NCBI GenBank assembly: GCA_947623655.1
Contig: CANQHG010000016.1
Location: forward strand, 1-40,439
Origin: an uncultured Clostridia bacterium
GTDB taxonomy: Bacteria; Bacillota; Clostridia; Christensenellales; Borkfalkiaceae
Length of the DNA: 40,439 bases
Direction of reading: 5' to 3'
In this document: piece after piece, positions 7,340 through 40,438 of the stretch
Position numbering within the stretch: the first letter of the stretch is position 1
Layout: every line of letters starts with the position of its first letter
Program-made: the position numbers and the translations under genes
The notes under the pieces: generated by a model
Told to the model about the DNA's origin: nothing
Database searches by the model: none
Seen by the model: the letters and a program-made list of their open reading frames with translations, nothing else

Positions 7340-8597
7340 AACGCTCGATCTTCTCTACGAATCGAGCCGTACTTATGATACGCTCGTCAAAAAGATCGTT
7401 GAGGAGATCAAAAGACGGGGCAGGAAAAAAGAAGTCTGCTATGTCGTGGACGGAAGCGTCACCGAAGACGCGGCGGCGGGGATCCTGCTCCGCAGCAACT
7501 TCGCGCGGTCCGTCGACGGGCGTTCCAAAGCGGGCGCTTTTGCCGCCCTTGCGGGCCTTTGCGGCGATTATACGGCCGTTTCCGCCTTTTCCGCCGCAGA
7601 ACAAAAATTACAGCTTCCCCTCGTTGTGTACGACGTCACGGAAGATAATGTCGGCGACCTCAAGCTTCTTCTTGCGGAAAAGTTCGGCGACGAGGCGGAG
7701 AGCGTGCTCATCACCGACGGCGTTGCCCGTGAAATGCCGCTGTATGAGACCGACCGCGCAGAGCTCGGCTTTCTGACGGGTCTTGTGTTGAAAAATCAAG
7801 ACTTATTGTCCAAAAAACGCTTTGATTTCGAGGACGTCGTTGCCATTTTAAAGCGTCTCCGCGCCCCCGACGGTTGCCCATGGGACAAAGTGCAGACGCA
7901 TGAATCCATCCGCATCAACGCCATTGAAGAGGCGTACGAACTCGTAGACGCCATCGACAGAAAGGACCCCGACCGCATGTGCGAAGAGGCGGGGGACGTT
8001 TTGATGCAGTCGCTCTTCCATGCCGTCATGGAGGAGGAAAAGGGGAATTTTACGGTGACGGACGTGCTCTCGGGGCTGTGCACAAAGCTCATCACTCGCC
8101 ACACGCATGTTTTCGGGACCGACAAGGCGGCCTCGGCGGACGGCGCGCTCTCCGTCTGGGAGAAGAACAAGATGACGGAGAAGCATCAGGCGACCTATTC
8201 GGACGCTGTAAACGACGTGCCGCAGTGTTTCCCCGCTCTCCTGCGGGCACAGAAGATCGCAAAGCGTATGGAGAAGGGGGGCTGGGACAAGGCCACTTTG
8301 GAAAATTTCGAAAAAAAGTTCCGCGAGGAGTACTGCGAACTCATGGAGGCGCTCAACGGCGGCGATAAGGCCCATATCGAAGAGGAGTTGGGCGACGTTC
8401 TCTTCTGCACCGTCGAGCTCGGAAGGGCGGTCGGCGGCGATTGCGAGCTCGCTCTCCTCGAAACGGTGAAAAAGGCGGCCGCTCGCTATACCGCCTACGA
8501 ATCGTTCGTGCTCGCAGACGGCAAAGACGTGCACAACCTCACGGACGAAGAGAAAGATGCCTATTACAAGAGAGCCAAAGATGCTGCACGCGCTTGA
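7194..8597 (+). CDS. yabN: YabN-like fusion: tetrapyrrole methylase fold plus MazG
   Basis: A 467-residue two-domain protein. Residues 1 to about 200 have the tetrapyrrole (corrin/porphyrin) methylase fold, starting MITVIGSGTERGDLTL as in YabN. Residues about 215-467 hold MazG pyrophosphohydrolase units: APDGCPWDKVQTHESI, then EEAYELVDAI with EEAGDVL, which supply the metal-binding glutamates, and a second EEYCELMEAL with EEELGDVLF. MazG enzymes hydrolyse NTPs to NMP and PPi. AAGGTGA lies 7-8 nt before the ATG. It overlaps the flippase gene by 146 bp and dus by 17 bp, suggesting one translationally coupled unit. Confidence 0.93.
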   Translation: MITVIGSGTERGDLTLNALQALREADEVILRTEKIPAAQTLIDQNIRYETLDLLYESSRTYDTLVKKIVEEIKRRGRKKEVCYVVDGSVTEDAAAGILLRSNFARSVDGRSKAGAFAALAGLCGDYTAVSAFSAAEQKLQLPLVVYDVTEDNVGDLKLLLAEKFGDEAESVLITDGVAREMPLYETDRAELGFLTGLVLKNQDLLSKKRFDFEDVVAILKRLRAPDGCPWDKVQTHESIRINAIEEAYELVDAIDRKDPDRMCEEAGDVLMQSLFHAVMEEEKGNFTVTDVLSGLCTKLITRHTHVFGTDKAASADGALSVWEKNKMTEKHQATYSDAVNDVPQCFPALLRAQKIAKRMEKGGWDKATLENFEKKFREEYCELMEALNGGDKAHIEEELGDVLFCTVELGRAVGGDCELALLETVKKAAARYTAYESFVLADGKDVHNLTDEEKDAYYKRAKDAARA

Positions 8598-9624
8598 GAT
8601 CGGCGGGTTATCGCTGAAAAACAACGTCTTTCTTGCCCCGATGGCGGGATATACGAACTATCCTTTCCGCAAGATGTGCGAGGAAATGGGCGCAGGGCTC
8701 ACCTTTACCGAAATGGTGTCGGCCAAGGGCCTGCACTATCAAAACGAGGAGACGAGGCTGTTGCTCTATCACGGGGAGACCCGTCCGCTTGTCCCGTCTG
8801 CTCATCCTGAGCGCAGCGAAGGATCTCATAAGCCCACGGACTTCGTTCAAGGGGATCCTTCGGTCGCTACGCTTCCTCAGGATGAGCGAAAGACGCGTCC
8901 CCTCGCCGCGCAGCTCTTCGGCGCCGACCCCGACATCATGCGCGAGGCGTGCGAGAGCGAGGCGCTCAAAGATTTTGACCTCATCGACATCAACATGGGC
9001 TGTCCCATGCCCAAGATCGTGAAAAACGGCGAGGGGAGCGCGCTCATGGAAAACCCCGCCCTCGCCGAAAAAGTCATTGCCGCCTGCGTAGGGAGCGGAA
9101 AGAGAATTTCGGTAAAATTTCGCGTCGGCATCGACGAAAATCACAAGATGTGCGCCGATTTCGCGAAATTGTGCGAGGGCGCTGGAGCGTGTATGATCGC
9201 CGTTCACGGCCGCACGCGCGATAAGATCTACGCGGGTCCCCCCGACTACGCCGAGATCGCGGCGGCAAAGAAAGCCGTAAAGATCCCCGTCATTGCGAAC
9301 GGCGGCGTATGGAACGACAGAGACATGAAAAAAATGCTCGAACGCACGGGAGCCGACGGGGTGATGGTCGCCCGCGCCGCGCTCTATCGTCCCCAAGTCT
9401 TCGCCGAGCTCACGGGACGGGAGGAACCGCCCATAAAACAATTCTTTTTAAACCAGCTTCGGGAGACGAAAAAGATCTACGGCGAGCGCTTTGCCTGCGT
9501 ATATATGCGGAAAATGGCGGCGTTTTATCTCAAGGGGACGCGCTGTGCCTCCGAAGCCAAGCGCCGCTTTTTCGCCGCACAGTCGACGGAAGAGATCTGC
9601 GCTTTGGCAGAGGAATTGATGTAG
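8581..9624 (+). CDS. dus: tRNA-dihydrouridine synthase with in-frame repeat insertion
   Basis: A 347-residue FMN-dependent enzyme that reduces uridine to dihydrouridine in tRNA. Diagnostic parts are FLAPMAGYTNYPFR, TEMVSAKGL, INMGCPMPKI with the catalytic cysteine, HGRTR and IANGGVW. Residues about 71-108 are extra compared with the family. They read VPSAHPERSEG through QDERKTRPL and are the translation of a family 1 repeat, interrupting what would otherwise be ETRPLAAQLFG. Without them the length is 309, normal for DusB-like proteins. The start at 8581 overlaps yabN by 17 bp; 8557 is an alternative with a better upstream purine tract. The insertion falls in the loop before a barrel strand, so activity may survive. 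Confidence 0.93.
   Translation: MLHALEIGGLSLKNNVFLAPMAGYTNYPFRKMCEEMGAGLTFTEMVSAKGLHYQNEETRLLLYHGETRPLVPSAHPERSEGSHKPTDFVQGDPSVATLPQDERKTRPLAAQLFGADPDIMREACESEALKDFDLIDINMGCPMPKIVKNGEGSALMENPALAEKVIAACVGSGKRISVKFRVGIDENHKMCADFAKLCEGAGACMIAVHGRTRDKIYAGPPDYAEIAAAKKAVKIPVIANGGVWNDRDMKKMLERTGADGVMVARAALYRPQVFAELTGREEPPIKQFFLNQLRETKKIYGERFACVYMRKMAAFYLKGTRCASEAKRRFFAAQSTEEICALAEELM
8779..8904 (+). repeat. Family 1 repeat inside dus with flanking direct repeat
   Basis: The repeat proper is 8801-8888, from CTCATCCTGAGCG to CAGGATGAGCG. It is bracketed by diverged direct repeats ACCCGTCCGCTT (8779-8790) and ACGCGTCCCCTC (8893-8904), which both encode Thr-Arg-Pro-Leu. The spacing is 114 bp, exactly 38 codons, with no stop in the dus frame. 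Confidence 0.85.
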
Positions 9625-24446: not shown

Positions 24447-24770
24447 AGTCCCTTACCCACTCCTTGAGGGGTTGGTGTCGAGCGTAGCAAGACGAAAGGG
24501 GTGGCATACGATTGGGAATGACACCCTCTCAGTCGCGGCGAGAATGGCCGCGACGGCTCCCCTTCGTAGGGGGTTCAAGGCTCCTCCTTAGGAGGAGCTG
24601 TCACCGCAAATGACTGAGGTGGGCCCGTCTCTCCAAACCCTCCCCCTATGGGGGGAGGGTGGCGCGGCGCAGCCGTGACGGATTGGGGGATAAGGCGAGC
24701 ATGATTCCCCACCACCGCCTACGACGGAGCCTCCCCCCCTGTGGGGGAGGCTTTCTCTCGGCTCCCGCGT
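24447..24770. repeat. Cluster of degenerate family 2 repeats
   Basis: No gene is supported between the lipoprotein and GDPD genes. This part holds several family 2 pieces: CCTTGAGGGGTTGGTGTC, GGAATGACACCCTCTCAGTC, a GGCTCCCCTT...AGGGGG hairpin, CTCCTCCTTAGGAGGAG, CCCTCCCCCTATGGGGGGAG and AGCCTCCCCCC TGT GGGGGAGGCT. It looks like repeated insertion and decay. Confidence 0.65.
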
Positions 24771-24777
24771 CGTTCTC

Positions 24778-24816
24778 AATCGCTTCACCCTGAGCGTAAT
24801 CGAAGGGTCACCACAG
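24778..24816 (+). repeat. Family 1 half-repeat
   Basis: CGCTTCACCCTGAGCGTAAT followed by CGAAGGGTCACC, a variant left arm. Confidence 0.5.
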
Positions 24817-24826
24817 TAAAACCGCG

Positions 24827-24970
24827 GCGTCATGCTGAGAAAGTGAACGGAACGCAGTCAACGGAAGCTGACTCGAAGCATCTCGCCGCACGGTATACGA
24901 TCGCCCCGCGAGATTCTTCGGGTTAAGTTGTTGTACTGCGTTTTTCTCGGTTTCTCAGAATGACGCGGGG
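24827..24970 (-). repeat. Family 1B repeat, about 145 bp
   Basis: On the minus strand it begins GCGTCATTCTGAGAAACCGA, continues CCCGAAGAATCTCGCGGGGC and CGGCGAGATGCTTCGAGTCA, and ends CTCAGCATGACGC. It is a longer subfamily also seen at 37160-37306. Confidence 0.7.
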
Positions 24971-24994
24971 CGGTGTGGGTCATCCTTAATCGCG

Positions 24995-25021
24995 TCATCC
25001 TGAGCAAAAGCGAAGCATTCC
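24995..25021 (+). repeat. Family 1 half-repeat upstream of the GDPD promoter
   Basis: GTCATCCTGAGCAAAAGCGA followed by AGCATTCC, ending where the -35 box begins. Confidence 0.5.
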
Positions 25022-25057: not shown

Positions 25058-25873
25058 ATGAATGCCGAATTTTTGAAAAATCTTCCCATCGCCCACAGGG
25101 GACTGCATGACGGGGAGCGGCCCGAGAATTCCCTGCCTGCCTTCCTCGCCGCCGTCGAACACGGCTATGCCATCGAGACGGACGTCCGCTTCACCAAGGA
25201 TAAAAAAATCGTCGTCTTTCACGACGACGATCTCCGCCGCATGACGGGCGACCCCCGCCCCGTTTCCGCGTGCACCTATGCGGAGCTCTCCGCGCTCGTG
25301 CTCCGTCCCGGAATGCAGTCCGACTGCACTATTGATTCCCCGCATGATTCTGCGCCCGCCGCGCTCCTGCGTCATCCTGAGCGTAGCGAAGAATCCCCCC
25401 AAATGCAGTCAAAAACGGCACATATCCCGCTGTTTTCAGAGTTTTTGGAGAGCGTAGAGGGACGAGTCCCTCTCCTCATCGAGATCAAAAACATGCCGCA
25501 TGTCAAGGGGAAAGAGATCGCCGCGGCGGTTCGGGCGCATTTGAAAGAGTATAGCGGCGCGTATGCCCTGCAGTCGTTCAACCCGCTTTATGTCAAAGCC
25601 TGCAAAAAGCTTTTTCCCGACATCCCCTGCGGCGTTCTCGGGACGGCGGAAAAGGGCGCGGCGAAAGGGTTTCAGCGCTATATCATCAAACATATGCCGT
25701 TGAATTTTTGGGTGAAGCCCGCCTTTATCAGCTATTGCAAAGAGGACTTGCCGCGCGGCAAGATAAAACGGTTCAAGGGCACGAAACTTGCCTGGGTCGT
25801 GCGCTCCGAAGAGGAAGAACGCGCCGCCCGAAAGTATGTAAACAACATCATATTTGAGGATTTTCTGCCGTAA
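25058..25873 (+). CDS. Glycerophosphodiester phosphodiesterase with in-frame repeat insertion
   Basis: A 271-residue GDPD-family TIM-barrel enzyme that hydrolyses glycerophosphodiesters to glycerol-3-phosphate and an alcohol. It has IAHRGLHDGERPENSL (catalytic His, metal-binding Glu), IETDVRFTKD, FHDDDLRRMTG (second His) and LLIEIKNM. About 30 residues between YAELSALVLRPG and IPLFSEFLE are extra. They contain LRHPERSEESPQ, the translation of a family 1 half-repeat, and lie between two copies of a 9-bp direct repeat. No signal peptide is seen, so it is likely cytoplasmic. The HRG motif comes so near the ATG that no later start is possible. Confidence 0.9.
   Translation: MNAEFLKNLPIAHRGLHDGERPENSLPAFLAAVEHGYAIETDVRFTKDKKIVVFHDDDLRRMTGDPRPVSACTYAELSALVLRPGMQSDCTIDSPHDSAPAALLRHPERSEESPQMQSKTAHIPLFSEFLESVEGRVPLLIEIKNMPHVKGKEIAAAVRAHLKEYSGAYALQSFNPLYVKACKKLFPDIPCGVLGTAEKGAAKGFQRYIIKHMPLNFWVKPAFISYCKEDLPRGKIKRFKGTKLAWVVRSEEEERAARKYVNNIIFEDFLP
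25312..25410 (+). repeat. Family 1 half-repeat inserted in the GDPD gene with 9-bp direct repeats
   Basis: AATGCAGTC occurs at 25312-25320 and 25402-25410, exactly 90 bp apart (30 codons). The repeat arm GTCATCCTGAGCGTAGCGAA with GAATCCCCCC is at 25371-25400. No stop arises in the gene frame. The bracket looks like a target-site duplication. Confidence 0.82.
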
Positions 25874-30057: not shown

Positions 30058-30148
30058 GGCGCAGAAGACGAGATTCGAACTCGTGCTACCTTTCACAGGT
30101 ACTACTCCCTTAGCAGGGGAGCCCCTTGAGCCTCTTGGGTACTTCTGC
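30057..30148 (-). tRNA. tRNA-Ser (anticodon GCT)
   Basis: Acceptor GCAGAAG/CTTCTGC, D arm CCCAAGAGGCTCAAGGG, anticodon stem CTCCC/GGGAG with loop CTGCTAA, a long variable arm TACCT gtga AGGTA typical of serine, T arm ACGAG TTCGAAT CTCGT, discriminator G and encoded CCA. It reads AGC/AGU codons. Confidence 0.97.
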
Positions 30149-37306: not shown

Positions 37307-37344
37307 CACCACAATTTTTCATTAAAAGAGTCCGCTCTTTTAGT

Positions 37345-37535
37345 GGGATTCTTCGGTCGCTTGCGCTCCCTCAGAATGAGCGTGGAACTCCGTTTGAGGG
37401 GATTCTTCGGTCGCTTGCGCTCCCTCAGAATGAGCGTGGAACTCCGTTTGAGGGGATTCTTCGGTCGCTTGCGCTCCCTCAGAATGAGCGGTAGACTCCG
37501 TTTGAGGGGATTCTTCGCTGCGCTCAGAATGAGCG
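37345..37535 (+). repeat. Tandem array of family 1 right arms, 54-bp period
   Basis: The motif GATTCTTCGGTCGCTTGCGC begins at 37347, 37401 and 37455; a shortened GATTCTTCGCTGCGCTCAGA begins at 37509. Each unit ends CAGAATGAGCG, and linker GGAACTCCGTTTGAGG recurs. The unit is 18 codons long and open in several frames. Confidence 0.9.
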
Positions 37536-40164: not shown

Positions 40165-40240
40165 GGAAGTTTAGCTCAGCTGGGAGAGCACTTGCCTTAC
40201 AAGCAAGGGGTCATAGGTTCGAACCCTATAACTTCCACCA
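40165..40240 (+). tRNA. tRNA-Val (anticodon TAC)
   Basis: Acceptor GGAAGTT/AACTTCC, D arm GCTC AGCTGGGA GAGC, anticodon stem CTTGC/GCAAG with loop CTTACAA, T arm ATAGG TTCGAAC CCTAT, discriminator A and encoded CCA. 76 nt. Confidence 0.98.
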
Positions 40241-40262
40241 TACAGTGCGGATAGCTTTTTAT

Positions 40263-40337
40263 GCGGGAATAGCTCAGTGGTAGAGCGTCACCTTGCCAAG
40301 GTGAATGTCGCGGGTTCGAGTCTCGTTTCCCGCTCCA
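40263..40337 (+). tRNA. tRNA-Gly (anticodon GCC)
   Basis: Acceptor GCGGGAA/TTCCCGC, D arm GCTC/GAGC, anticodon stem TCACC/GGTGA with loop TTGCCAA, T arm GCGGG TTCGAGT CTCGT with two G-U pairs, discriminator T and encoded CCA. Confidence 0.97.
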
Positions 40338-40363
40338 AACACAGCTCCGCACTGTTTTTTTTC

Positions 40364-40438
40364 GGCGCCATAGCCAAGTGGTAAGGCAAGGGTCTGCAAA
40401 ACCCTGACTCCCCGGTTCAAATCCGGGTGGCGCCTCCA
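40364..40438 (+). tRNA. tRNA-Cys (anticodon GCA)
   Basis: Acceptor GGCGCCA/TGGCGCC, D arm GCC/GGC, anticodon stem AGGGT/ACCCT with loop CTGCAAA, T arm CCCGG TTCAAAT CCGGG, discriminator T and encoded CCA. It ends one base before the window edge, so the cluster may continue. Confidence 0.97.

Follow-up and report, generated by a model that had tools for sequence, protein, structure and literature searches.

Palindromic repeats lying in frame within genes are described best for Rickettsia, as the excerpts of PMC10969869 and PMC3733652 used here present them. The excerpt of the latter (Di Nocera et al., 2013; PMC3733652) sets out a CGTC-tagged super-family of REPs, equates RPE-4 and RPE-6 with CGTC REPs, and places different REPs at about the same recB site in two Xanthomonas species. 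In titles and the beginnings of abstracts we found no account of unrelated repeat families re-using one loop across a genus; the excerpted text of PMC12306157 makes no mention of "in-frame" or "intragenic", and a literature search with repeat DNA words and peptide words such as HPERSE returned nothing relevant.

Here we examine a repeat insert in a GDPD gene of a gut Clostridia lineage, in a 40,439-nucleotide stretch of DNA (the window) from a genome of 1.66 Mb and 94.7% completeness that we label G000. The insert is probably a copy of a small REP-like hairpin repeat, and the pair of AATGCAGTC that brackets it probably represents the end of the repeat unit, present twice, and not a target-site duplication.

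The GDPD site and the repeat that occupies it

The preliminary description reported a perfect direct repeat around a family-1 half repeat that keeps the frame of the gene, and both observations hold: AATGCAGTC occurs exactly twice in the window, 90 bp apart from start to start, both copies lie inside the single open frame of the gene (Pfam GDPD, E 1.1e-26), and the half repeat falls within the translated LRHPERSEESPQ (Table 1). The insert would give the protein a hydrophilic stretch, ...HPERSEESPQMQSK.... By chance, 0.23 matches to AATGCAGTC are expected in the window, and two or more arose in 3 of 100 shuffles. The leader that follows the left copy reads GACTGCA after its first base, inverted relative to the TGCAGTC of left AATGCAGTC; it had no match among the best 60 hits of a search of the sequences compared, and no decayed unit was recognised in it. 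The dense mix of repeats just upstream of the gene is a possible donor of the insert.

Table 1. Features of the window discussed in the text (positions are those of the window).
Feature	Position	Strand	Basis or remark
GDPD gene (glycerophosphodiester phosphodiesterase) with insert	25058..25873	+	271-aa ORF, Pfam PF03009, AlphaFold model
Insert relative to empty orthologs	25304..25411	+	Replaces ~6 bp; net +102 bp = 34 codons; against G113, G031, G010, G109
Left AATGCAGTC	25312..25320	+	
Leader, 49 bp	25321..25369	+	Between left AATGCAGTC and family-1 unit
Family-1 unit: CGTC tag, hairpin ATCCTGAGCGTAGCGAAGAAT, CCC tail	25370..25397	+	C/A mismatch at covarying stem position
3' end of family-1 unit, subtype a, consensus CCCTCAAACGNAGTC	25395..25410	+	Last 9 bases = right AATGCAGTC (25402..25410)
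Cluster of several repeat families just upstream of GDPD gene	24600..25021	.	Sequence and repeat listing
Dus gene with in-frame family-1 dimer	8557..9624	+	ORF, relatives, Pfam
Head-to-head family-1 dimer in Dus, tags outside, read as SAHPERSEGSHKPTDFVQGDPSVATLPQDER	8800..8888	+	
Family-1 array, three units at 54-bp spacing, end AAACGGAGT	37339..37533	-	

The genus set comprised 103 genomes, 83 of which gave a GDPD match at E 1e-25 or better. Site letters were read at 38 GDPD loci and the remainder of the 83 were judged from the match table, which might conceal an insert of another family at loci listed with their C-terminal piece only. Six of the 38 loci carry a long insert (G000, G032, G103, G086, G096 and G120, all matching the query across residues 83-117), two carry four extra codons (G109 and G107), and the remaining 30 have neither, so the in-frame repeat insertion that had been proposed is borne out and is missing from most relatives read. 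The distance between fixed anchors is correspondingly 91-104, 61 and 56-57 residues, and relative to the 153-bp empty regions the added DNA amounts to 102 bp in G000, 105 bp in G032, 117 bp in both G103 and G086, 141 bp in G120 and 12 bp in G109. None of the 38 loops contains a stop, stops having been permitted in the search. Five of the long inserts consist of family 1 or decayed forms of it; that of G032 is an unrelated repeat, PPPPEENPTMPPPEEGGRGVG. On a three-gene tree with the insert columns removed, G096, G103, G086 and G120 group together as a clade and G109 is the sister of G032; the branches separating G000, G032 and G109 have supports of 89/88 to 97/95, and the insert requires at least three changes of state on this tree. 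With GDPD alone, a clade made up of G000, G032 and G109 is not rejected (p-AU 0.132).

Family 1 itself was followed through 30 core matches in G000 (at most three mismatches), 108 copies in 338 kb of the ~1.9 Mb of G032, and 693 kb of the ~1.8 Mb of G109. The match at L030 was discarded as a chance match within an ordinary gene of G000, which we take to be rlmN-like. The folded unit has a 4-nt tag and a tail, and between them a stem of ATYCT with AGRAT that continues through a tandem G-A and two G-C pairs to a loop of 3 nt; three of four folded units have five plus two pairs around the tandem G-A, starting with AT, one of these three with two more pairs, while in the fold of the window's GDPD unit the outer pairs are lost to a C-A mismatch. 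The Y-R position of the stem covaries across 136 copies of G032 and G109 (C-G 120, T-A 14, C-A 2, T-G 0), with 134 of the 136 able to pair. The tag is GCTC in the majority and CGTC in 13/47 copies of G000, 0/128 of G032 and 9/69 of G109, the GDPD copy having CGTC; the tail in G000 is CCC in 28/47 and CTC in 17/47, and subtype-a copies continue GRATC-CCCTCAAACGNAGTC.

Copies tend to point in the direction of their co-directional flanking genes, by 42:6 in G032 and 16:5 in G109 (L202-L221, L227-L266; copies in arrays counted singly). We rejected a replication-strand bias, orientation against GC skew being 35:58 in G032 (p 0.02) and 26:17 in G109 (p 0.22), with opposite signs. Family-1 counts range from 0 to 311 across the genus, with a match in 41 of 103 genomes, and exact matches occur in 20 of 291 genomes sampled across the class, in some of them in tens. 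At gathering thresholds Rfam found four tRNAs in the window and no family for the repeat; three of these tRNA genes lie in a row at the window end (40165-40435) and the fourth at 30060-30148. Our transposase search covered Y1_Tnp, which had no match in G000 and was present in 25 of the 103 genus genomes, G032, the richest in copies, not being among them; a link to RAYT was set aside, there being no Y1_Tnp in G000 and, by eye, no link between its presence in the genus and copy number. We suggest that a repeat of this form, with a 4-nt tag CGTC or GCTC, a 9-bp stem including tandem G-A mismatches and a CCC or CTC tail, standing alone, as head-to-head dimers or in tandem, would multiply chiefly in intergenic DNA, mainly in transcription sense, without a Y1 transposase resident in G000.

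Origin of the nine-base bracket

The bracket had been taken for a recent target-site duplication, that is, for transposition into a host AATGCAGTC that was thereby doubled. In its favour is the perfection over 9 bp; a 9-mer common to the 60 bp on the left and the 30 bp on the right of an insert-sized stretch arises by chance in ~0.4% of cases (3000 simulations). The window is nonetheless rich in such pairs: it contains 51 direct repeats of 9 bp or more spaced 50-150 bp apart, where 40 order-1 simulations gave 19.1 +- 4.0, and the AATGCAGTC pair by itself therefore means little. Two direct repeats of this class lie in the GDPD frame, where one third of 2000 simulations gave at least one; the excess in the window probably stems in part from its own tandem arrays.

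Against this reading stands the right copy, which aligns with the repeat's own 3' end. A 39-nt, 90% match of the window copy to another G000 locus (L027) includes right AATGCAGTC, and AANGNAGTC, with one mismatch, lies within 30 bp after 6/27 copies in G000 and 23/106 in G032, compared with 146/4000 and 131/4000 random stretches; we conclude that right AATGCAGTC belongs to the repeat. The nearest empty GDPD sites lack the AATGCAGTC motif, which is absent in G113, G031, G010 and G107. Nor is a bracket general: for 29 solitary G000 copies (the window and the 30 loci), the mean length of the longest word common to both flanks is 5.90, with 5.79 in controls, and a word of at least 9 occurs at the GDPD copy only (control 1.4%). 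Such words exceed the controls in G109, at 9/51 solitary copies (control 7.5%), and slightly in G032, at 7/62 (control 7.4%); by eye most of them are repeat pieces. Two other solitary copies in G109 are bracketed by CTCAAACGCAG and ACGAAGTCC, both pieces of the unit end, which speaks for an element-borne bracket. A direct repeat of this type can also arise without target duplication, as in MetG of G096, where two tandem units 66 bp apart both end in CTCAAACGGAGTC; a unit end without HPERSE stands in MetG of G026 (CCTCAAACGCAGTC) and of G031 (TCAACGAAGTC), as it does in GDPD of G109.

The sister species offer an argument for a target duplication. The site holding a single AATGCAGTC that the preliminary description predicted does exist, in G109, and together with G032 it resembles an empty and a filled site with a 13-bp duplication, CTCCAACGCAGTC; this pair is compatible with target duplication. 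Because GDPD does not reject a clade of G000, G032 and G109, one ancestral AATGCAGTC could later have served as the target. We read the single AATGCAGTC of G109, less surely, as a footprint of the repeat, noting that G107 has four extra codons without the motif, so that extra codons alone are no proof of a footprint. Between the two genomes, 252 gap events reduced to nine clean indels, too few for a rule on filled and empty sites; the three tagged as repeat lack a direct repeat. Taking the repeat-borne right copy, the motif-free empty sites and the unbracketed solitary copies together, we hold target-site duplication to be unlikely, if deserving of attention, and the short sequence duplicated here most probably belongs to the repeat and is not an insertion scar. 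The left AATGCAGTC would then be the remnant of an upstream unit or the product of recombination at a unit end, short unit ends such as CAAACGNAGTC being likely recombination points.

Inserts in other genes and turnover of copies

The GDPD insert has counterparts. The Dus gene reads the related PSAHPERSEG to which the preliminary description had pointed, and the HPERSE-type inserts that it expected elsewhere in the genome are found in Dus, MetG and the M19 dipeptidase of G000, with a related piece in CopA; the CopA insert was judged from its own ORF alone, the others, like GDPD, by comparison with relatives. Repeat inserts recur in the same loops of Dus, MetG and M19 dipeptidase, as they do in GDPD. 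Of 30 Dus loci, 25 were read first, ten having a long insert, of at least three kinds, and 15 none or a short one; four further loci were then read, one (G019) with a middle-sized insert, and the last (L141) lies at a contig end. An apparent short form in G120 was discarded, the locus sitting at a contig end, and Dus of G000 shows an imperfect flanking duplication (TRPL...TRPL). The MetG linker, with L104, L105 and L123 unreadable among 30 loci, holds different repeats in G000, G010, G100, G031, G032, G096, G103, G120 and G107. Ten of 12 M19 loci were read (all except L270 and L278): family 1 is present in differing tandem numbers in G000, G109, G113 and G032, other repeats in G031 and G087, and none in G107, G026, G010 and G096; M19 of G014 (L270) has a stop inside the match. 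The M19 loop of L267, L268, L269 and L271 is a coding tandem array of ~60-bp units whose number varies by species, in frame in the four read, and outside the G000 clade the loop of the G087 gene (L272) is long and holds a further repeat, PLEGELAPAKRATEG.

Copies in verified genes are few. In G032, one of the 108 copies in 338 kb sits in a long frame in which Pfam recognises HhH-GPD and NUDIX, the pair seen in MutY. Under a stop-to-stop rule for frames of at least 200 aa, 5/93 copies in G032 and 7/43 in G109 fall within frames, the Pfam scan having covered the MutY-like one; antisense copies lie near the starts of two such frames, L233 and L238. Gene calls rested on long-ORF criteria (150, 180 or 200 aa), without a gene caller. 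Long in-frame repeat linkers occur in the MutY-like gene of G032 (L202:3090-4370) and in its M50 protease (L203:17744-19168), the latter being a different repeat with CPPPASGE-like units. The CopA frame stays open through family-1 repeats into CopZ in G000 (L027:3-1799) and G109 (L254:7374-10016); a sequence resembling a ribosome-binding site persists before the CopZ ATG, and a repeat-made CopA-CopZ fusion is possible. No insert read contains a stop or breaks the frame, and their lengths differ by multiples of three; this regularity is firmest for GDPD, as the search patterns used outside the 38-locus GDPD reading sought stop-free stretches and could have missed broken loops.

Copies also differ strongly between sister species. 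Over ~105 kb of chained DNA compared between G032 and G109 (block median identity 93%), 42 of 49 family-1 halves of G032 lie outside blocks conserved with G109 and seven inside; 37 gaps hold copies in both genomes (7), in G032 only (11), in G109 only (7) or in neither (12), with the caveat that gaps may arise since repeats break alignments. These differences suggest recent turnover of copies, judged from genome comparison, and with the genus and class counts they point, irrespective of how the bracket is read, to repeats that move or change quickly. The active movement earlier read from the bracket accordingly finds support in the unlike content of the sisters and not in a target duplication.

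How the inserts affect their hosts was approached through models and substitution rates. The AlphaFold model of GDPD has a mean pLDDT of 90, falls below 50 at residues 89-100, shows the insert without secondary structure, and matches 2pz0, a GDPD, best in the PDB, the best matches all being GDPD enzymes; that of Dus has a mean of 84.5 and is below 50 at residues 76-111 (the insert), 1-7 and 152-158. In these models both inserts are low-confidence, unstructured loops on confident folds, and they are probably floppy. Between GDPD of G032, with a long insert, and of G109, without one, dN is 0.031 and dS 0.259, and the host enzymes look maintained. For two inserts, of 37 and 43 codons, dN/dS is ~0.39 and 0.75, where the whole gene has 0.15 and 0.32. 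Four of the six frames of the subtype-a unit are open, and the HPERSE frame is the most hydrophilic of them, with a GRAVY of -1.93; the other open frames range from -0.68 to 0.22. This frame is read in GDPD (G000, G103), Dus (G000, G113), MetG (G000, G010, G100, G096), M19 (G000, G109, G113, G032) and the MutY-like gene, with other frames used in GDPD and Dus of G096.

Selection for the peptide itself would explain why the same loops of GDPD, Dus, MetG and M19 are occupied again and again, in different species and by different repeat families, and why the HPERSE frame dominates: the inserts would be kept since the loops help the host proteins, as a domesticated source of linkers. We think this improbable, as insert content varies among most lineages, most relatives read lack the GDPD insert altogether, protein-level change is faster in the inserts than across the gene as a whole, and models show the inserts without secondary structure. 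The peptide "tolerated by design" that had been proposed is likewise unneeded: sense orientation, one very hydrophilic open frame and purifying selection could suffice. That the ribosome skips the insert, or that it is otherwise removed and missing from the protein, is very improbable; the foreign look of the insert is all that suggests it, and inserts that are in frame, stop-free and of lengths differing by multiples of three tell against it. We give almost no credence to an artefact of assembly or binning, even though many relatives are represented by metagenome assemblies broken into numerous contigs, and repeats are often found close to where a contig ends, because six separate genomes have long inserts at one place, with differing content, and several genes are affected.

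We therefore return to the REP-like hairpin repeat, copies of which would persist in permissive loops of genes, in frame and mostly as the very hydrophilic frame HPERSEGSPQTKS, translated with the host protein and perhaps neutral to it. An occupied loop would stay open to tandem growth, to shrinkage and to replacement by other repeat families. A more specific proposal, that hairpin repeats from a standing pool favour the sense direction when they enter genes, by way of transcripts or of DNA that is transcribed and single-stranded, with unrelated families refilling the same loops, is in our view quite doubtful; if true, it would describe an ongoing, transcription-coupled source of disordered protein linkers that does not depend on a resident Y1 transposase. 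This gut Clostridia lineage, with 103 species-level genomes in which one and the same loop is empty, nearly empty or filled in different ways, allows tests of three points: the movement of REP-like repeats where a Y1 transposase is lacking, a possible dependence of their direction on transcription, and the fate of the inserts, which may stay neutral or turn into useful linkers.

Relation to known repeat systems

REPINs with their RAYTs share with the repeat described here the paired inverted REP units and many copies, and differ in that Y1_Tnp was found neither in G000 nor, among the genus matches, for G032. MITEs are likewise small, interspersed and of high copy number; unlike them, the 29 solitary G000 elements show no general target duplication, with the G032/G109 pair compatible with one.

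The likeness to the CGTC-tagged REPs is closer. As the excerpt of PMC3733652 describes them, these too have an unpaired tag at one end of the hairpin, AT at the stem base, a stem of ~9 bp and a short tail, form head-to-head dimers, and are mostly intergenic with some intragenic copies. The paper's table gives them no associated transposase; in our set Y1_Tnp, the transposase covered, had no match in G000 and was present in 25 of the 103 genus genomes. The stem of 8-9 bp starting with complementary AT is found here as well. The tag there is CGTC, or TGTC/CCTC, whereas here it is mostly GCTC; the tail there is mostly CCA, here CCC or CTC; and the loop there has 4-5 nt, with exceptions named, in contrast to the 3 nt and tandem G-A of our unit, which depart from that definition. 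Head-to-head dimers predominate there, and here an inverted partner falls entirely inside the 60 bp on the tail side in 8/47 copies (G000), 25/128 (G032) and 6/69 (G109), by a strict pattern that undercounts. The host here is a member of the Clostridia, and a search of PMC3733652 found no mention of Firmicutes. With some features shared, one departing and several undecided, we call the repeat "REP-like".

The Rickettsia palindromic elements, in the excerpts of PMC10969869 and PMC3733652, are also palindromic repeats lying in frame in unrelated conserved genes, with several families per genome. Here, in-frame repeats occur in GDPD, Dus, MetG, M19 and CopA of G000 and in the MutY-like and M50 genes of G032. 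The Rickettsia elements measure ~150 bp and our units are shorter; the likeness drawn here is one of description. On the excerpts used, the CGTC-tagged REPs and the Rickettsia palindromic elements are the closest known systems, from the latter of which the loops described here differ in being occupied by unrelated families in different species.
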